64,000 nt of DNA from Candidatus Photodesmus blepharonis. Its GTDB lineage: Bacteria > Pseudomonadota > Gammaproteobacteria > Enterobacterales > Vibrionaceae. The position numbers and the translations under genes were made by a program. The notes beneath the pieces are model-generated. The model worked only from the letters and a program-made list of their open reading frames with translations, made no database searches and was not told the origin of the DNA. The stretch lies in contig NZ_JGVK01000027.1 in the NCBI RefSeq assembly GCF_000731795.2, positions 121,249 through 185,248 of the forward strand, given 5' to 3'. Positions 11,207-49,794 of the stretch are shown in pieces (positions within the stretch are counted from its first letter, which is position 1; every line of letters starts with the position of its first letter).

Positions 11207-12582
11207 TGATTACAGTTTCCTTAAAGCAGTTGTCTAATCTGCTGAACGGATATCTTATTGGAAAAGATCTTAAAATTTCAGATGTTTCAACTGATAGTCG
11301 TAGTGTCGTTCGTGATGCATTATTTGTAGCCTTAGTTGGTAAAAATTTTGATGCGAATGATTTTGTTTACCAAGCAGTAGGCAAGGGTGCTAAGGCGTTA
11401 TTGGTTAATAAGCCATTCAATGTTTCTGTGCCACAGTTAGTTGTAAGAGACACAACACTTGCGTTAGGACAGCTGGGAGCTTGGGTTCATCAAAATTGTG
11501 GGATGCCGACAGTTGCTATTACTGGAAGTTGTGGTAAAACCACCGTGAAAGAGATGTTAGTGAATATTTTATTAAAACAAGGTCGAGTTCTTTTCACGAT
11601 TGGAAATTTTAATAATGAAATAGGTGTTCCTATGACTTTATTGCGTTCAACACCACAAGATGATTATGCTGTTATTGAACTTGGTTCGAATCACATTGGT
11701 GAAATAGCCTATACTGTATCTTTAGTTCAACCTGATATTGCATTAGTGAACAATGTAGGTGCAGCACATTTGGAAGGTTTTGGTTCTATTGAAGGAGTAA
11801 AGTGTGCAAAAGGAGAAATTTACCAAGGATTAAAATCAGGTTCAGTTGCTATAGTAAATTTAGATAGCAATGGTGGTCAATGTTGGGAGCCTTTTCTATT
11901 AGATAAAAAGGTTATCACTTTTTCTAAGCATAATAAAAATGCGGATGTATATGCATCTCGAATTACTCTTGATATTGATGGAAAGGCTCAGTTTTGTCTC
12001 CATACTCCCCAGGGAACTTGTGATATTCAGTTAAGCGTAGTTGGGAAACATAATGTTTCTAATGCGCTTGCTGCAAGTTCTCTGGCCCTGCAATTTGGGA
12101 TTGATTTATCTGAAATTAGATGTGGTTTACTACGTCTAGTTAAAGTAAAAGGTCGTGTTGAACTCATTAAATTAACAGAGAAAATTAAGCTTATTGATGA
12201 TACTTATAATGCTAGTGTCCCTTCTATGAAAGCTTCGGTTGATTTATTAGGCGTTTTTGAAGGTTTACGTTGGCTAATTTTGGGTAACATGACAGAGTTA
12301 GGAAGTGAAAGTCTTACACTTCATCGTCAAGTTGGAGAATATGCTGCTTCATTCAATTTTGAGTATGTTCTCACGTATGGTAGTGATGTAAAATTAATTA
12401 GCGATATTTGTCATGGATTACATTTTGATACTTACGGAAATATGGTTACATACATAAAACATAAGATCGAGAAACATAATGATAAGCGTCATACTTTATT
12501 ATTTAAAGGGGCTAATAGTGTTGAAATGAATAAACTAGTGCTTTTATTAAGGAGAAGCATCAATGCTCATTTGGCTTTCTAA
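11206..12582 (+). CDS. murF: UDP-MurNAc-tripeptide D-Ala-D-Ala ligase MurF
   Basis: Last cytoplasmic stem-peptide ligase; attaches D-Ala-D-Ala to UDP-MurNAc-tripeptide. The P-loop [14 protein letters not shown] lies near residues 103-116. The Mur central-domain motifs [12 protein letters not shown] and [12 protein letters not shown] follow, then the [17 protein letters not shown] segment of the C-terminal domain. I start it at the ATG at 11206, which overlaps the murE stop; an in-frame TTG one codon earlier is less likely. Length is 458 residues. Its 3' end overlaps mraY by 20 bp, showing tight packing. Confidence 0.97.
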
Positions 12583-13645
12583 GTTATTACAGCCATATTT
12601 TTCCTTTTTTAGGTTGTTTGAATATTTATCATTTCGAGCGATTGTTAGCGTTTTAACTGCGTTAATGATTTCGTTGTTGATGGGACCTCATTTGATTAGG
12701 AGCTTGAGATTACTTCAGATTGGTCAGGTTGTTCGTACTAACGGCCCTAAATCGCATTTTAGCAAGCGTGATCGACCAACAATGGGTGGAATAATGCTTC
12801 TTGTTTCTATTATTGTTACAGTTTTACTTTGGACGGATTTATCGAACCTTTATGTATGGTCTGTTCTTTTTGTTTTAGTTGGATATGGAGCTGTTGGATT
12901 TGTAGATGATTATCGTAAAGTAGTGAGCAAAAACACTGATGGTTTACTTGCCCCTTGGAAGTATTTTTGGCAATCAATGATTGCTTTAACTTTAGCATCA
13001 CTGCTTTACGCTTATGGTAAAAACACCGTTGCTACACAATTGGTCATCCCTTTCTTTAAGGAATTACTACCACAGCTTGGGTTGGGATACATTGTATTAA
13101 CTTATTTTGTCATTGTTGGAACAAGCAATGCAGTAAATTTGACTGATGGTTTAGACGGACTAGCCATTATGCCAACTGTCTTAGTATCTGCTGGTTTTGC
13201 TGCTATCGCTTGGGCAACTGGTAATGTAAATTTTTCTAATTATTTACACATTCCCTATATTCCTCAAACTTCGGAACTAGTTGTTGTATGCACAGCTGTT
13301 GTTGGTTCTGGTCTAGGTTTTTTATGGTTTAATACTTATCCGGCACAGCTGTTTATGGGGGATGTTGGCTCATTAGCGCTCGGCGGGGCTTTAGGGATTA
13401 TTGCTGTACTAGTTCGTCAGGAGTTTGTTTTGATCGTTATGGGCGGCGTTTTTGTAATGGAAATATTATCAGTGATTTTGCAGGTAGGTTCGTATAAATT
13501 ACGTGGTCAGCGTATTTTTCGTATGGCGCCTATTCATCATCATTACGAACTCAAAGGTTTGCCTGAACCACGTGTAATTGTTCGATTTTGGATCGTATCA
13601 ATTGTTTTGGTTTTAATTGGTTTAGCAACCTTAAAAATTCGATAG
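12563..13645 (+). CDS. mraY: Phospho-MurNAc-pentapeptide translocase MraY
   Basis: Integral inner-membrane enzyme that transfers phospho-MurNAc-pentapeptide to undecaprenyl phosphate, making lipid I. About ten hydrophobic helices are visible. The family motifs are [16 protein letters not shown] (near residue 60), FVDDYRKV (aspartate pair near 115), [10 protein letters not shown] (near 195), [13 protein letters not shown] (near 265) and the histidine motif [11 protein letters not shown] (near 325). Length (360) is exactly usual. The start at ATG 12563 lies inside the murF 3' end. Confidence 0.97.
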
Positions 13646-41710: not shown

Positions 41711-42091
41711 TTGAATAAAAATATGAAAATTCTTATTGTTGATGATTTTTCGACAATGCGTCGTATCGTTAAAAATTTACTTCGTGATTTAGGTTTTAAT
41801 AATACGCAAGAAGCTGACGATGGTCTTACCGCATTACCTATGTTGAAAAGAGGAGGGGTTGAGTTTATTGTTACAGATTGGAACATGCCAGGCATGCAGG
41901 GTATTGATTTACTAAAAAGTATTCGTGCTGATAACGAACTTAAACATCTTCCAGTATTGATGATCACTGCTGAAGCAAAACGTGAGCAAATTATTGAAGC
42001 GGCGCAAGCAGGAGTAAATGGTTATATTGTAAAACCTTTTACAGCTGCCACTCTTAAAGCAAAATTAGAGAAAATTTTTGAGCGGCTATGA
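41711..42091 (+). CDS. cheY: Chemotaxis response regulator CheY
   Basis: Single-domain receiver; phospho-CheY binds the motor switch to change flagellar rotation. The acidic pair Asp11-Asp12, phospho-acceptor Asp56 (VTDWNMPG), Thr86 and Lys108 (YIVKPF) are all present. A perfect GGAGGT (41701-41706) precedes a TTG at 41711 by only 4 nt; the alternative ATG at 41723 has a 16-nt spacing and would begin MKILIVDD. Vibrio homologues contain [13 protein letters not shown], so the TTG codon corresponds to that leucine and the upstream vibrio residues are lost. Confidence 0.96.
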
Positions 42092-42133: not shown

Positions 42134-42841
42134 ATGATTTCATTAGAACAGGCAAAGCAACTTATTAAATTGCTAGAACAAGGACAACAGGAGGAAGCTG
42201 ATATACTTGTAAAAGTAATTTATGAAGGTAGCGAAAACGCTATGCTTCAGGAAATAGGAATTTTGACTCGTGATTTACATGATTCTCTTAAAGAGTTTAA
42301 TTTAGATGAAATTACCAATAATGAAATTCCGAATGCGAAAGAACGACTTCAGTATGTTATTGATAAAACTAGGTTAGCAGCGAATAAAACTATGGATGCT
42401 GTTGATGAATGTATGCTTATTGTCGAAAATTTTCATAGTGTTTTGCTTGAAGTGCGACCTCAATGGAATGAACTTATGTCTGGAAGGATAAAATTAGCTG
42501 AGTTTAAATCACTTTGTCACAAAATCGATGAGTTGTTGAGTAAAGCTGAACGCAATAACCCTGGATTAAAAAAGCAGCTCACTCAAATATTAACAGCTCA
42601 AGATTTTCAGGACTTAACAGGTCAAATGATTCAAGGTGTCATTACATTAGTAAGTGAGGTTGAATTTAGGCTTGTTCAGATTTTAACTGTATTTGGAGAA
42701 AATCAAAATAAAGAGAAAAAAAATAATCAAAAGGTATCACTTGAACCTTCTGGACCTGTTTTGAATGCTAAAAAGAAAGAAGATGATGTAGTTTCATCTC
42801 AAGATGAAGTGGACGATTTGCTTGCAAGTCTTGGGTTTTAA
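42134..42841 (+). CDS. cheZ: CheY-P phosphatase CheZ
   Basis: Dephosphorylates CheY-P to end a signal. Long helices (about residues 30-170) form the four-helix bundle; the catalytic region contains AQDFQDLTGQMIQGVI near residue 155, with the essential glutamine. The C-terminal VSSQDEVDDLLASLGF is the CheY-binding peptide. A lysine-rich, low-complexity linker sits between. Length (235) is normal. It forms a tight unit with cheY and cheA. With cheB broken, CheZ is a remaining signal-termination activity. Confidence 0.95.
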   Translation: MISLEQAKQLIKLLEQGQQEEADILVKVIYEGSENAMLQEIGILTRDLHDSLKEFNLDEITNNEIPNAKERLQYVIDKTRLAANKTMDAVDECMLIVENFHSVLLEVRPQWNELMSGRIKLAEFKSLCHKIDELLSKAERNNPGLKKQLTQILTAQDFQDLTGQMIQGVITLVSEVEFRLVQILTVFGENQNKEKKNNQKVSLEPSGPVLNAKKKEDDVVSSQDEVDDLLASLGF

Positions 42842-42850
42842 GGAGTAGGT

Positions 42851-44764
42851 ATGAGCTACGATTTAGATGAAGATATTCTGCAGGATTTTTTGGCAGAAGC
42901 ATGTGAAATACTTGATTTACTTTCTGAGCAGCTAGTTGAACTCGAAAATAATCCTGAAGATAAAAATTTACTTAATGCAATCTTTCGTGGTTTTCATACA
43001 GTTAAAGGTGGCGCTGGATTTCTTTCCTTATCTGCGCTTGTTGATATTTGTCATGGTGCAGAAAATGTTTTTGATATCTTAAGAAATGGACAACGTTCAG
43101 TAACTTCAGGTTTGATGGATACTATGCTTCGGGTACTTGACTCTGTAAATGAGCAATTTCAAGCTCTTCAACGGAAGGAGCCGTTAATTCCAGTAAATCA
43201 AAATTTGTTGAATGAGTTGCAGTATTTATCCAAACCAGAACTTGATAATGGTCATGAATTAATTTCTCAAGAGTTAAATGATGCTATTGAAAAGAAATCC
43301 GAAACGGGTGGAGCAGTTGATGATATTTCTCAAGATGAATTTAGTAAGCTATTAGATGAGCTGCACGGTTCTTCTCAAAGAGCATCCAGAAGAAATGTTA
43401 AACTTTCAACTTTAAAAGATTCAACAGTTAAGTCAAACAATGACAATTTAATGACAGAGGATGAATTTGAAGAATTATTAGATGATTTACATGGTTTAGG
43501 TCAAGGTCCAAAGCCAATGTTGGCTCCCGGTACTTCTATTTCAGAACAGTTAGAACCTACTACTCAGTTGAAAAAAATTCAAGTTTCTGAAACTACGGTT
43601 CGTGTAGATACTTCAACACTTGATACTATTATGAATATGGTGGGTGAATTAGTTCTTGTCCGTAATCGTTTATTAAGCTTAGGTTTAAACAGTAGCGATC
43701 AAGAAATGTTTAAGGCAGTGTCTAATTTAGATATTGTTACGGCAGATTTACAAGGTGCTGTAATGAAAACTCGTATGCAGCCGATCAAGAAAATATTTGG
43801 TCGATTTCCAAGAGTAGTTCGTGATTTAGCTCGTAGTCTGAAAAAAGATATTTCTTTAGAAATGAATGGTGAAGATACTGATTTAGATAAAAATTTAGTT
43901 GAAGCTTTAGCAGATCCATTAGTCCATTTAATTCGAAATTCAGTTGATCATGGTATTGAGATACCAGACGATCGCATAGTCTTAGGTAAATCCCGTGTTG
44001 GTAAAGTTATTCTTTCAGCCTCCCAAGAAGGCGATCATATCGAACTTTCTATTACTGATGATGGTGCTGGTATGGATCCTAATAAATTGCGTAAAATTGC
44101 AGTGCAACGTGGTTTGATGGATAAAGATACTGCTTCTCGTTTAGATAACAAAGAATGTTTTAATCTAATTTTTATGCCTGGTTTTTCTAGTAAAGAAAAT
44201 GTATCAGATATTTCAGGTCGTGGTGTTGGTATGGACGTTGTAAAAACTGCGATCAATACTTTGAATGGTTCTATTGATATCGATTCTGAAATAGGTAAGG
44301 GCACTAAGATTACTATTCAGGTTCCTTTAACGTTAGCTATTTTACCAACCTTAATAATAGGAGTTGGTAAATATCCATTTGCTTTGCCACTTGCAAATGT
44401 AAATGAGATTTTTCATTTGGATCTCAGTCGTACCAATGTTGTTGATGGTCAATTGACTATTATTGTTCGTGATAAATCTATTCCACTATTTTATTTGCAA
44501 GAATGGTTAATTCCAAAATCAGATTCGATTAAAGAGAGTGAAGGACATGGCCATGTTGTTATTGTCCAAATCGGAGTACAACGAGTCGGTTTTGTTGTGG
44601 ATGCTTTAATTGGACAAGAAGAGGTAGTTATCAAACCGTTAGATAATCTTCTTCAAGGTACTCCAGGAATGGCTGGTGCAACAATTGCAAGTGATGGTCA
44701 TATCGCGCTGATTTTGGATGTTCCAGATTTATTAAAGCAGTATGCAGCTATTTTTCGGATTTAA
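42851..44764 (+). CDS. cheA: Chemotaxis histidine kinase CheA
   Basis: Receptor-coupled kinase of the array, phosphorylating CheY. The P1 phosphotransfer domain has His49 in FHTVKGGAGFLSL. A linker of about 150 residues contains two copies of a DEFxxLLDxLHG motif (near 165 and 206). Dimerisation P3 begins near residue 255. The P4 ATPase domain has NSVDHGIE, DDGAGMD and GRGVGMDVVK. The CheW-like P5 ends the protein. Length 637 is short beside vibrio CheA proteins, which I recall as above 700; the loss is in the linker/P2 region. GGAG precedes ATG 42851. Confidence 0.95.
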   Translation: MSYDLDEDILQDFLAEACEILDLLSEQLVELENNPEDKNLLNAIFRGFHTVKGGAGFLSLSALVDICHGAENVFDILRNGQRSVTSGLMDTMLRVLDSVNEQFQALQRKEPLIPVNQNLLNELQYLSKPELDNGHELISQELNDAIEKKSETGGAVDDISQDEFSKLLDELHGSSQRASRRNVKLSTLKDSTVKSNNDNLMTEDEFEELLDDLHGLGQGPKPMLAPGTSISEQLEPTTQLKKIQVSETTVRVDTSTLDTIMNMVGELVLVRNRLLSLGLNSSDQEMFKAVSNLDIVTADLQGAVMKTRMQPIKKIFGRFPRVVRDLARSLKKDISLEMNGEDTDLDKNLVEALADPLVHLIRNSVDHGIEIPDDRIVLGKSRVGKVILSASQEGDHIELSITDDGAGMDPNKLRKIAVQRGLMDKDTASRLDNKECFNLIFMPGFSSKENVSDISGRGVGMDVVKTAINTLNGSIDIDSEIGKGTKITIQVPLTLAILPTLIIGVGKYPFALPLANVNEIFHLDLSRTNVVDGQLTIIVRDKSIPLFYLQEWLIPKSDSIKESEGHGHVVIVQIGVQRVGFVVDALIGQEEVVIKPLDNLLQGTPGMAGATIASDGHIALILDVPDLLKQYAAIFRI

Positions 44765-44787: not shown

Positions 44788-45804
44788 ATGTTGATAAAAG
44801 TATTAGTTGTTGATGATTTAAGCTTTTTTCGTCATAGAATCAGCGAAATCATTAACTCAGTTACGTTTAGAAGTCATTGATGTTGCTATTAATGGAAAAG
44901 ATGCTGTTGAGAAGATTAAATGTTTAAAGCCAGAGTTATTATTACGGATATTAGAGATGTCTGTTGTGAATGGTATAGCTGCTATAAGAAAAATTATGGC
45001 AACATGTCCGACTCCTATTCTTATGTTTTCATCTTTGGGTTATAACGGAGAAAAAGTCAAATTAGATGCTGGAGCGTTAGATTTTTTACCTAAAAATTTT
45101 GAAGCTATTTCCTATAATCAAAATGAAGGAGTTAGCTTGCTTAAAGAGAGAGTTCTTCAAATTTCTAAAATAAAAAAAAGTGTGTCGGTACAACGAACGC
45201 TTCTTGAGAAAAGGAGTGCTGGTGTTTCTTTTTCGCGTTTTAAAGCATCCGACAAAAAGTATCAGTTGACTGCTATAGGTGCATCAGTAGCTAGTCCAGT
45301 TGCACTACAGAAAATTCTTGCTCAGTTACCGGCTAATTATCCACATCTTAATTGTGCTGATTCAGCATATGCCAGCAACGTTTACAACGGCTTTCGCGAG
45401 TCGTTTGAACTAACTGTGTATAAGCAAAAGACGGCGATATACTTTTCCCAGGTGTTGCTTATTTAGCTCCTGGTGGAAAACGGACGATGATTGGTGAATC
45501 AGCCTGGTTCTCTGCTAACTTGCAGATTACTGATGATGGAGCAGGAATGAATTATCAACCGTGCGTTGATGTTACTTTTAATTCTGTCGCGAAGATTTAT
45601 TCTGGTCAAGTATTATCTATGCTATTAACTGGAATGGGAGCTCGTGCCCTAAAAAAACAGGTGCTACTATTTGGACTCAATGATGAAGAGAGTTTTGCCG
45701 TGTGTGGGATGCCTGAAGTTGTAGTAAAAACCGGTATCTCGACTGAAAATTTACCGTTGGATCTTATAGCTGAACGAATGTTAGTCGAAGTTGTTGTATT
45801 ATAA
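44788..45804 (+). pseudogene. cheB: Disrupted chemoreceptor methylesterase cheB
   Basis: CheB normally demethylates chemoreceptors to reset sensitivity. The gene starts well (AAGGAA then ATG 44788, MLIKVLVVDDLSFFRHRISE) but hits a TGA at 44878-44880 after a shift near 44858. LRLEVIDVAINGKDAVEK continues in another frame from 44861 to 45466. There PELLLRILEM replaces PDVITMDIEM, so the phospho-acceptor Asp is missing. After 45330 the HMPATFT...AFASRL stretch is found only out of frame. From about 45434 AKDGDILFPGVAYLAPGG resumes in the frame that runs to 45804. Near 45640 a deletion plus a shift removes the DGREG motif. The catalytic serine motif GTSTGGP reads GASVASP. At least five lesions make it non-functional. 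Confidence 0.93.
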
Positions 45805-45815
45805 GAGGATTAATA

Positions 45816-46598
45816 GTGATTGTTTGGAGTACCGCGAACCAAAAAGGGGGAGTTGGCAAAACAACTACCACTATAACTCTAGCCGGTTTGTTGAGTAAAC
45901 AAAATAAGAAGATCTTGTTGATTGATACTGATCCGCATGGTTCTTTAACAGCTTATCTTGGCTATAATCGCGATACCATCCATATGAGTTTATTTGAACT
46001 TTTTCAATTTAAAAAAATTAGGAAACAAAACATTCTTTCAATAATTTTGAAAACGAATATGCATGGAGTTGATATTGTTCCTGGACATATTTCATTGGCG
46101 ACATTAGATCGAGTCATAGTAAACAAGAGCGGAATGGGGCTTATTTTGAAGCGAGCCTTATTTGAGTTATATAATGATTATGATTATGTTTTGATCGATT
46201 CTCCCCCTATTTTAGGTGTTATGATGGTGAATGCCTTAGCGGCGAGTGATCGTGTACTCATTCCAGTACAGACAGAGTTTTTAGCTATGAAAGGTCTAGA
46301 ATGGATGCTTCGTACATTAGGGATGATGCAAAAATCTCGTGATAGAAGTTTTAAAATAACAATTATACCAACGATGTACGATAAACGGACTAATGCTTCT
46401 TTAAAAACACTCAATCAGCTTAAAAAAAAATATTCGAATTGGATGTGGGATTCAGCGGTACCAATTGATACTAAATTTCGAGATGCTAGTTTAAGGCATT
46501 TACCCATATCTCATTTTACGACATATAGTCGCAGCCGTGGTCTCATGGCCTATAGTCAGTTACTTTTATATCTGGAAAGATTAAATGATGATGAATAA
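45816..46598 (+). CDS. parC: ParA-like chemotaxis positioning ATPase ParC
   Basis: In Vibrio, ParC (a ParA/MinD-like ATPase, unrelated to topoisomerase IV ParC) places chemotaxis arrays at the old pole and ensures their inheritance. The deviant Walker A ANQKGGVGKTTTTITLAGLL lies at residues 6-25, followed by LIDTDPHGSLTAYLGY and the Walker B VLIDSPPILGV. Length (260) is as expected. The GTG at 45816 lies 11 bp after the cheB remnant. It overlaps parP by 14 bp. It could be confused with a plasmid-type ParA, but the position between cheB and the parP/cheW genes identifies it. Confidence 0.9.
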   Translation: MIVWSTANQKGGVGKTTTTITLAGLLSKQNKKILLIDTDPHGSLTAYLGYNRDTIHMSLFELFQFKKIRKQNILSIILKTNMHGVDIVPGHISLATLDRVIVNKSGMGLILKRALFELYNDYDYVLIDSPPILGVMMVNALAASDRVLIPVQTEFLAMKGLEWMLRTLGMMQKSRDRSFKITIIPTMYDKRTNASLKTLNQLKKKYSNWMWDSAVPIDTKFRDASLRHLPISHFTTYSRSRGLMAYSQLLLYLERLNDDE

Positions 46599-47445
46599 TG
46601 ATCTATTATTTTCTAGTAAACGAGTTCTCGAAGATTATTTTTCAGCTTTACTTGATGGAGAGGATGAATATTCAGTTGTTGAAGATCTTGAAGAAATAAA
46701 TTTATCTACAGAAATAGAATTGCAAATGCTTAGAAAAGCAAGATCAAGGGAAGGAAGTTGCTATTTACTAGAAGATAGAGAGACTAAGATTTCCTATCTT
46801 CAAAATGTTGAAGGACTTTTAAGCCAATTAGAATCAAGTAAGTCGAATGAAAAATTAGGGTTTGAGGAATTTTTTGAAAAGGAGGAGACCCTTCGAATTG
46901 AAAAAAAAGATGTATCAGTTGTAGAAAAAATTCAGGGTATTAGCAGTCAATTTTCCAACTGGAATGTTAAGCGTATTAAAAAAATTCCAGTGCTATATTT
47001 CGAAATTAATGCTATTACTTTTGCTGTTCCTTTAGATGAACTAGGCGGTGTTTATCGTATTAAGAAGTTAAATCATTTAATAGGAAAACCTAATTGGTAT
47101 TTAGGATTACAGATTAATAAAAATAGTAAGCTTAATGTTGTCGATGCTGTGCAATGGGGATTATCTGGAAAAGGTAATTGCGAAGATTATAGGAAACCGT
47201 ATCAGTATATAGTAATGCTTGGAAAAAGCACGTGGGGCTTGGCAAGTACTGACGTAAAAAGTACTGAAATTTTAGATATAGATAAAATCTACTGGCGTAA
47301 AAATACAGGTAGACAACCTTGGCTTTCAGGTATGATAAAAGAAAAAATGTGTGCTTTGATTTACGTTGAAGCATTAGTGGTTATGCTTAGTGCGGGTCTT
47401 GATATAAAAGCATTAAACAATATATTAGTTTCGACACAGACTTAA
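46585..47445 (+). CDS. parP: Chemotaxis array protein ParP (CheW-like)
   Basis: ParP links ParC to CheA and receptors, holding arrays at the pole. The N-terminal half (about residues 1-125) is acidic and probably disordered; the C-terminal half (about 135-280) is a CheW-like fold, starting KKIPVLYFEINAITFAVPLDELGGVYRI. Three consecutive ATGs begin the gene at 46585, overlapping parC. The length of 286 is a little below vibrio homologues. The match rests on position and the CheW-like domain; the N-terminal half is weakly conserved. Confidence 0.85.
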   Translation: MMMNNDLLFSSKRVLEDYFSALLDGEDEYSVVEDLEEINLSTEIELQMLRKARSREGSCYLLEDRETKISYLQNVEGLLSQLESSKSNEKLGFEEFFEKEETLRIEKKDVSVVEKIQGISSQFSNWNVKRIKKIPVLYFEINAITFAVPLDELGGVYRIKKLNHLIGKPNWYLGLQINKNSKLNVVDAVQWGLSGKGNCEDYRKPYQYIVMLGKSTWGLASTDVKSTEILDIDKIYWRKNTGRQPWLSGMIKEKMCALIYVEALVVMLSAGLDIKALNNILVSTQT

Positions 47446-47456
47446 AGAGGGAAAAT

Positions 47457-47930
47457 ATGTCTCAATCTAATGAAGAGGTTCTCCAATGGGTTACGTTCCA
47501 ATTAGAGGGAGAAACTTACGGTATCAATGTGATGCAAGTACGTGAAGTATTACGTCATACTGAAATTGCTCCAGTACCAGGTGCTCCTATCTATGTGTTA
47601 GGTATTATTAATTTGCGTGGTAATGTCGTAACAGTTATTGATACGCGTTCTCGTTTCGGTTTGGAAGAAGGTAAAATTACAGACAATACACGTATTATTG
47701 TGATTGAATCTGAATCTCAAGTAATTGGTATTTTAGTTGACAGTGTCGCAGAGGTAGTCTATTTACGTTCTTCTGAAATTGATACTACTCCAAGTATTGG
47801 TAGTGACGAAAATTCTAAGTTTATTCAAGGCGTTAGTAACCGAGATGGAAAATTATTGATTTTGATCGATCTTAATCAGCTACTCTCTAACGAAGAATGG
47901 AATGAGATAACTTATCATAATGGTGATTAA
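47457..47930 (+). CDS. cheW: Chemotaxis coupling protein CheW
   Basis: Adaptor joining receptors to CheA in the hexagonal array. The whole protein is one CheW domain: WVTFQLEGETYGINVMQVREVLRHTEIAPVPGAP, INLRGNVVTVIDTRSRFGL and DSVAEVVYLRSSEID are close to vibrio CheW. Length (157) is normal. GAGG is 10 nt before ATG 47457. Its tail overlaps the DUF2802 gene by 11 bp. Its high conservation contrasts with the neighbouring cheB ruin. Confidence 0.97.
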   Translation: MSQSNEEVLQWVTFQLEGETYGINVMQVREVLRHTEIAPVPGAPIYVLGIINLRGNVVTVIDTRSRFGLEEGKITDNTRIIVIESESQVIGILVDSVAEVVYLRSSEIDTTPSIGSDENSKFIQGVSNRDGKLLILIDLNQLLSNEEWNEITYHNGD

Positions 47931-49125: not shown

Positions 49126-49794
49126 ATGGTTTCAAAGTTGCTTCTCATTGTTTATCGTGAGCTTCTTATCGTTTCTCGTCGTCGATCTGACATGTTTAAT
49201 CCATTGTGTTTTTTTATAATGGTTATTGTCCTTTTCCCTTTGAGCATTGGACCAGAACCGAAGCTTCTTTCTCGAATTGTTCCTGGTATTGTTTGGGTAG
49301 CAACTTTACTTTCAGCGCTTTTATCGCTGGAACGATTATTTCACGATGATTTTCAAGATGGTACATTGGAACAAATGATGCTTGTGCCTATCCCTTTATC
49401 ATTAATTGTCTTTGCTAAAGTAATAGCGCACTGGATGATCACTGGATTGCCGCTGATATTAATCAGTCCTTTATTATTGGTTTTATTATCGCTAGATTTG
49501 AATACTTGGTTAGCTATTGTTTTAACTTTGTTAGTAGGAACACCTACACTCAGTTTTATTGGTGCTATCGGTGTTGGTTTAACAATTGGTTTATCTAAAG
49601 GAGGACTACTACTTAGTTTGTTGATATTGCCTCTGAGTATACCCATTTTAATTTTCGCTACCTCAGCAATTAATGCTGCCTCCTTAGGAATGCCTTATAA
49701 TGCTCAATTAGCAATGTTAGGCGCTATCTTTATGGGAACTATGACTTTGACTCCATTTGTAATTAGTGTGGTATTGCGTATTAATGTAAATTAA
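49126..49794 (+). CDS. ccmB: Heme exporter membrane protein CcmB
   Basis: Membrane subunit of the CcmAB transporter. Six hydrophobic helices are visible. The family stretch ERLFHDDFQDGTLEQMMLVPIPL lies near residues 67-90, with GLPLILISPLL and the glycine-rich IGVGLTIGLSKGGLLLSLLILPL following. Length (222) is normal. It begins 3 bp after ccmA. Confidence 0.95.
   Translation: MVSKLLLIVYRELLIVSRRRSDMFNPLCFFIMVIVLFPLSIGPEPKLLSRIVPGIVWVATLLSALLSLERLFHDDFQDGTLEQMMLVPIPLSLIVFAKVIAHWMITGLPLILISPLLLVLLSLDLNTWLAIVLTLLVGTPTLSFIGAIGVGLTIGLSKGGLLLSLLILPLSIPILIFATSAINAASLGMPYNAQLAMLGAIFMGTMTLTPFVISVVLRINVN

Follow-up and report, generated by a model that had tools for sequence, protein, structure and literature searches.

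The single chemotaxis system of 'Ca. Photodesmus blepharus' has probably lost CheR and CheB together, once it had separated from 'Ca. P. katoptron', with its excitation path still under selection; this is the reading of one genome. The genome is that of strain Ppalp1, which lives as a luminous symbiont in the flashlight fish Photoblepharon palpebratus and is listed with 23 pseudogenes and 1,003 total CDS in Table 2 of PMC6020299. Two observations carry the loss: (i) cheB in the window (the whole 64,000-nucleotide stretch analyzed here) has been reduced to a pseudogene by no fewer than five frameshifts plus one in-frame stop, and (ii) the sole CheR match found in the genome is a pseudogene as well. 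With both genes broken, the whole methylation module is gone.

The cheB pseudogene occupies positions 44788–45804 of the window (plus strand), where homology and its position between cheA and parC mark it as a receiver-methylesterase gene of the V. cholerae cluster II type. In a frameshift-aware alignment to the intact CheB of P. katoptron (353 aa, L053:7905-8966), 203 of 353 residues are identical and five frameshifts are placed near 44860, 45347, 45423, 45655 and 45681; the in-frame stop, at 45411–45413 within the esterase domain, is seen in this alignment and at the nucleotide level. Pairwise nucleotide alignment with P. katoptron further identifies two one-base shifts (plus strand, near 44934 and near 44953) that compensate each other and leave the codon of the receiver aspartate out of frame. 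In-frame losses include three codons near 45060 and six codons near 45638, the latter taking out the catalytic aspartate and being followed by two frameshifts (45632–45690, plus strand). Translated from the native start, the frame closes after 30 codons. What is left is an open frame of 169 codons inside the pseudogene (44957–45466, plus strand), which holds neither the receiver aspartate nor the catalytic aspartate nor a complete esterase domain, and no open frame with both receiver and esterase domains is found at the locus. We assume throughout that the receiver and catalytic residues have the roles of their E. coli CheB counterparts; on that assignment, the Ser-His-Asp triad and the receiver aspartate cannot be read in one frame, as the serine is kept, the aspartate deleted and the histidine in a different frame.

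The original prediction, made from the letters of the window, was that cheB is destroyed, with the receiver aspartate lost near 44920 and the catalytic serine motif gone. The alignments bear out the destruction of the gene and, through the shift pair, the loss of the receiver aspartate. The statement on the serine motif holds in part: the residues that follow the serine are changed (GASVAS here, GTSTGG in P. katoptron), but the serine itself is still encoded and the catalytic residue actually deleted is the aspartate.

A PF01339 profile search of the whole genome (33 contigs totalling 1,112,309 bases; completeness 99.99%) gave matches solely at the window locus, split in three fragments. No second CheB was thus found in the assembly. 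The cheR pseudogene lies on the minus strand of contig 30 (G000, 11920-12743), flanked by cheV and by flagellar rod genes that we presume to be flgB-like, all of them intact. Although 164 of 275 residues are identical to P. katoptron CheR, the gene carries at least six lesions (three frameshifts and three in-frame stops; in a looser alignment two of the three stops become a shift pair) and its native frame closes after 31 codons. No open frame with an intact methyltransferase domain was found anywhere in the genome, so neither CheR nor CheB is functional in this assembly. A search for the deamidase CheD at E values up to 1 gave no match in P. blepharus; the same search gave one weak match below the cut-off in P. 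katoptron and matches above the cut-off in both free-living genomes (G012 and G002). A second CheB and CheD were therefore rejected as substitutes for the missing enzymes, neither having been found in the genome searches. It is possible that a non-homologous methylation enzyme acts in their place, or that an intact cheB or cheR is hidden in an assembly gap. As the only copy of cheR found is itself a pseudogene, the receptors should never be methylated and should stay in their encoded form.

The sister species places the loss. 'Ca. P. katoptron' Akat1 has one intact CheB (353 aa) and one intact CheR (275 aa), so that the pair was lost on the blepharus lineage. The two species share the order of the che cluster and orthologues of two receptors; they differ in the state of cheB and cheR and in receptor number, two in P. 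katoptron against three in P. blepharus. A wider survey covered 51 Vibrio-group genomes, P. blepharus included, sampled from a larger group. CheA, CheB and CheR matches were each present in 48 of the 51, and the same three genomes (G014, G015, G041) were without all three. Among the 47 other CheA-bearing genomes, 45 have CheB in one unbroken frame (346 aa or longer; exceptions G010 and G039) and 46 have CheR in one (266 aa or longer; exception G010). The exceptions (loci L200, L201 and L202) have a single shift per gene, in cheB of both genomes and, for G010, in cheR and cheW too; identity is high apart from these shifts, and because they fall in well conserved sequence we read them as likely assembly errors. 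P. blepharus is the only surveyed genome in which many lesions were seen in both cheB and cheR.

The other genes of the chemotaxis cluster are open, as originally predicted. All are on the plus strand of the window. By domain search, frameshift aligner and motif check, cheY (41717–42091) is intact with its phospho-acceptor motif, cheZ (42134–42841) is intact with its catalytic motif, and cheA (42851–44764) is intact with Hpt, dimerisation, ATPase and CheW domains and with both the phospho-acceptor histidine and the ATP-site motifs; we take these motifs to have the roles that their names imply. Downstream of cheB, the gene for a ParA-like polar organiser (45816–46598), which we call parC from its genome context, is intact by open reading frame list and frameshift aligner. 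It is followed by a single open frame with a CheW-like domain (46585–47445; open reading frame list and domain search), presumably parP, and by cheW (47457–47930), intact by domain search and frameshift aligner. With the same aligner at a looser penalty, all seven neighboring genes examined (cheY, cheZ, cheA, parC, cheW, flhF and flhG) had zero events. The receiver aspartate of CheV is kept, and is identical in P. katoptron and in 20 of 20 outgroups. The genome has one CheA, and a second che cluster was not found in it. The parts of a chemotaxis system without adaptation (receptors, CheA, CheW, CheV, CheY and CheZ) are thus all intact.

CheA of both symbionts is short: 637 aa in the window and 629 aa in P. 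katoptron (L053:6001-7890), compared with 757 aa in one free-living Vibrio. The common shortening, of roughly 120 residues, lies between the Hpt and dimerisation domains. A short CheA was considered as a correlate of cheB loss and rejected, since P. katoptron, with its intact cheB, has it too.

The alternative that survives best, which we nevertheless consider unlikely, is that the whole chemotaxis system is decaying, with cheB and cheR the first to go and the rest an unselected, temporary remnant. Genome reduction and the 23 pseudogenes given in Table 2 of PMC6020299 are in its favor, as are the three surveyed genomes without any CheA, CheB or CheR match. The lesion count argues against it. 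Twelve disrupting lesions are present in the 1,890 bp of cheB and cheR together, and at this density ten retained genes (cheY, cheZ, cheA, parC, parP, cheW, cheV and three receptors), 12,117 bp in all, would have gathered about 77, had they been unconstrained equally long; none was seen. Freedom from lesions was judged by the frameshift aligner in five of these genes and by single full-length open frames in the other five.

Substitutions provide a second measure. At columns invariant among free-living Vibrio we counted changes found only in P. blepharus and changes found only in P. katoptron, after dropping shifted, gapped and stop columns. The outgroups were 26 chosen of 80 loci, 20 regions for cheR, 6 and 8 orthologues for the two receptors, and only 6 sequences for flhA. 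The blepharus-only to katoptron-only counts were 35:10 for cheB (44:10 with shifted, gapped and stop columns kept) and 30:7 for cheR. For the intact chemotaxis genes they were 4:4 (cheY), 8:11 (cheZ), 6:55 (cheA), 6:8 (cheW), 6:9 (cheV) and 12:22 (parC); for the flagellar genes, 19:39 (flhA), 15:16 (flhF) and 6:16 (flhG); and for the receptors, 21:16 (C30) and 26:42 (C1). The test omits parP, for which no outgroup orthologue passed the length filter, and the third receptor, for which no katoptron orthologue was found. Against the sum over the 11 intact genes, 129:238, Fisher p-values are 6e-8 for cheB and 7e-8 for cheR; they become 3.5e-6 and 2.3e-6 without cheA, and 2.4e-5 and 2.1e-5 without cheA and the flh genes, all to be taken as a guide since columns are not fully independent. 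Lineage-specific decay did not differ between cheB and cheR (p = 0.79), and this like amount of decay is consistent with loss of the two genes at much the same time. In pairwise dN/dS the classes overlap: the pseudogenes, at 0.30 and 0.27, fall within the 0.06 to 0.50 of the retained genes, so that pseudogene status is separated by the lineage-specific test only.

Decay of the whole system would also have to accommodate cheA, which has 6 blepharus-only changes at invariant columns against 55 in P. katoptron, and the hairpin tips of the two tested receptors, where the invariant columns (69 and 67) hold no blepharus-only change; two invariant columns of the second tested tip are changed in both symbionts. 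One count does lean toward it. Receptor C30 has an excess of blepharus-only changes, 21:16 compared with 108:222 in the other ten intact genes (p = 0.006, uncorrected for 11 tests), which may reflect relaxed constraint or re-tuning.

The P. katoptron cheA is itself accelerated (p = 1.6e-6 against the other intact genes), and this acceleration falls in the species that keeps adaptation.

If the loss were very recent, the partners of cheB and cheR may be intact only for want of time to decay. The 12 lesions argue against so recent a date. By a rough hand estimate, the excess in cheB and cheR amounts to about 0.1 neutral substitution per site, which may be one fifth of the length of the blepharus branch; the dating is rough because the synonymous distance between the two species, near 1 (0.76 to 1.41), approaches saturation. 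The depth of decay also speaks for an old loss within the lineage, and we therefore regard it as very improbable that the loss is polymorphic or local, with this host population lacking the enzymes and others keeping them, even though each species is represented by one genome.

In the original prediction, cheB alone was missing, receptors could not be demethylated, and adaptation would be lost or locked. Loss of CheB only, with over-methylated receptors and a kinase locked on, accounts for the broken cheB; it is hardly credible given that the sole cheR found is also broken, on another contig, which leaves nothing to methylate the receptors in the first place. Assembly or sequencing errors, for which one could cite the draft state of the assembly (33 contigs) and the error-like single shifts in drafts G010 (cheB, cheR, cheW) and G039 (cheB), can practically be dismissed, because cheB and cheR, on separate contigs, together carry about 12 lesions against none in seven of seven neighbors, and indel errors would hardly create an excess of substitutions at invariant sites from which shifted, gapped and stop columns had been excluded.

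Joint loss of CheR and CheB from an otherwise selected system thus remains our preferred reading, and the receptors on which such a system would depend are all intact. The genome encodes three: C30 (626 aa; G000 contig 30, 34918-36798), C1 (627 aa; contig 1) and a third receptor (770 aa; G000 contig 32, 5658-7970), each with dCache_1, HAMP and signalling domains and with dCache_1 above the cut-off. Two have orthologues in P. katoptron, where two receptors are present in all; no counterpart of the third was found there, so that the species lacking adaptation has more receptors. The sensor domains of both receptors searched match solved chains of P. aeruginosa PctA, PctB and PctC, along with other MCP sensor chains. 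In these putative amino-acid receptors a pocket region, YDPR..RPWY, which we take to be the ligand motif, is conserved in both alignments. PctA–C have been implicated in amino-acid taxis, and the V. cholerae receptors Mlp24 and Mlp37 are described as amino-acid receptors (PMC11940527).

We considered erosion of the methylation sites as an independent sign of the loss, a check that had been suggested at the outset, and rejected it. Of nine putative sites (three per receptor, which we assume to lie where motif and E. coli positions place them), eight keep glutamate and one has aspartate; at the latter, glutamate is found in nine of nine orthologues, P. katoptron included. Within six columns of the sites there is no consistent excess of changes (blepharus-only to katoptron-only counts are 4:2 in one receptor and 2:6 in the other). 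The CheR-docking pentapeptide of the E. coli type is absent from all three receptor ends (FKV, FKL and FKY), and Vibrio orthologues of the two compared receptors likewise end without it. Taken together, the checks proposed beforehand returned one broken cheR, no CheD, an intact cheV and three receptor genes in P. blepharus, and an intact cheB in the sister species.

Based on these observations, we propose how the remaining parts could work. Three receptors, CheA, CheW, CheV, CheY, CheZ and flagellar genes are present, in an excitation path that is probably still under selection. The receptors would operate in their encoded state, with glutamate at eight of nine putative sites, and the set point of the array would be fixed by the gene sequence. 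Ligand binding would still set CheA activity and hence CheY-P, and CheZ would remove the signal. Any return to baseline, presumably slow, would need another source, be it the CheV receiver, remodelling of the motor or turnover of receptors. The swimming of such a cell would be biased within a narrow span of cues, for which amino acids around the host are plausible candidates, and the cell would not compare concentrations over a wide range. It is plausible, as had been suggested, that temporal sensing over a wide range is no longer selected, and this fits the joint loss; the fast switching suggested alongside it gains no support from these results. More tentatively, and somewhat short of an even chance in our judgment, P. 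blepharus could be a naturally occurring cheR cheB double mutant still able to navigate: its three-receptor array would be re-tuned to a fixed set point and hosts found by amino acids without a molecular memory, while the sister species, in another fish genus, uses a memory-based system.

With respect to gene content, the closest model is system II of V. cholerae, for which cheY, cheZ, cheA, cheB and cheW in one cluster (cluster II), cheR2 in the flagellar cluster, and CheV1 are described (PMC11940527). P. blepharus shows the same content, with cheR beside flagellar genes, and differs in that cheB and cheR are pseudogenes, that one CheA is present without a second che cluster having been found in the genome, and that it has three receptors against at least 25 in V. 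cholerae (PMC11940527).

The absence of the module has a parallel in another host-restricted swimmer. Helicobacter pylori has CheA, CheW and CheY and, like P. blepharus, keeps CheZ and CheV but has neither CheR nor CheB. It is reported to have three CheV proteins and four receptor types and to respond nonetheless to diverse chemoeffectors, and what CheV contributes to adaptation is described there as open (PMC11634455). Gastric Helicobacter are presented as the notable exception to a near-universal methylation module, receptor methylation being regarded as needed for temporal gradient sensing (PMC12270135), and an older survey mentions that CheB and CheR may at times be missing (PMC2829493). 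P. blepharus differs from gastric Helicobacter in keeping remnants of both genes, in having one CheV instead of three, and in its Vibrio-type system. With remnants still in place and the sister genes intact, the loss in P. blepharus is recent relative to the split from P. katoptron. For CheV, a role as adaptor and phosphate sink has been proposed in enterobacteria, and the protein has been linked to adaptation in Bacillus (PMC4742279).

E. coli cheR and cheB deletion strains lack the same parts as P. blepharus (PMC12270135). As described there, a strain deleted for cheR evolved to drift up gradients in the absence of short-term adaptation, whereas selection brought no improvement in the cheR cheB double deletion (PMC12270135). 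The latter result argues against an easy route in P. blepharus, unless the loss followed a changed selective need. A further difference is that E. coli receptors encode two of four sites as glutamine (PMC12270135), whereas the putative sites in P. blepharus are glutamate or, in the one case, aspartate.

P. blepharus would thus represent another, independent and still legible loss of the module, in a group whose free-living relatives, and its sister, keep the textbook arrangement, and together with P. katoptron it provides a before-and-after pair for asking whether and how chemotaxis works without adaptation. Hendry et al. (2016), in a comparison of two Photodesmus genomes, reportedly proposed amino-acid chemotaxis for host finding; the loss of cheB and cheR qualifies the idea that flashlight-fish symbionts find their hosts by ordinary amino-acid chemotaxis. 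The main texts of the papers found on Photodesmus and chemotaxis, a search that did not extend to the 2016 genome comparison, do not mention cheB, and that of PMC6773444 does not mention cheR either.

Finally, a membrane gene that we take to be heme-exporter-like lies beside an ABC-transporter ATPase gene in the window (49126–49794) and encodes 222 aa. For its P. katoptron counterpart (L053:12195-12593) the only frame listed is one of 132 aa, and the gene is possibly broken in that species.
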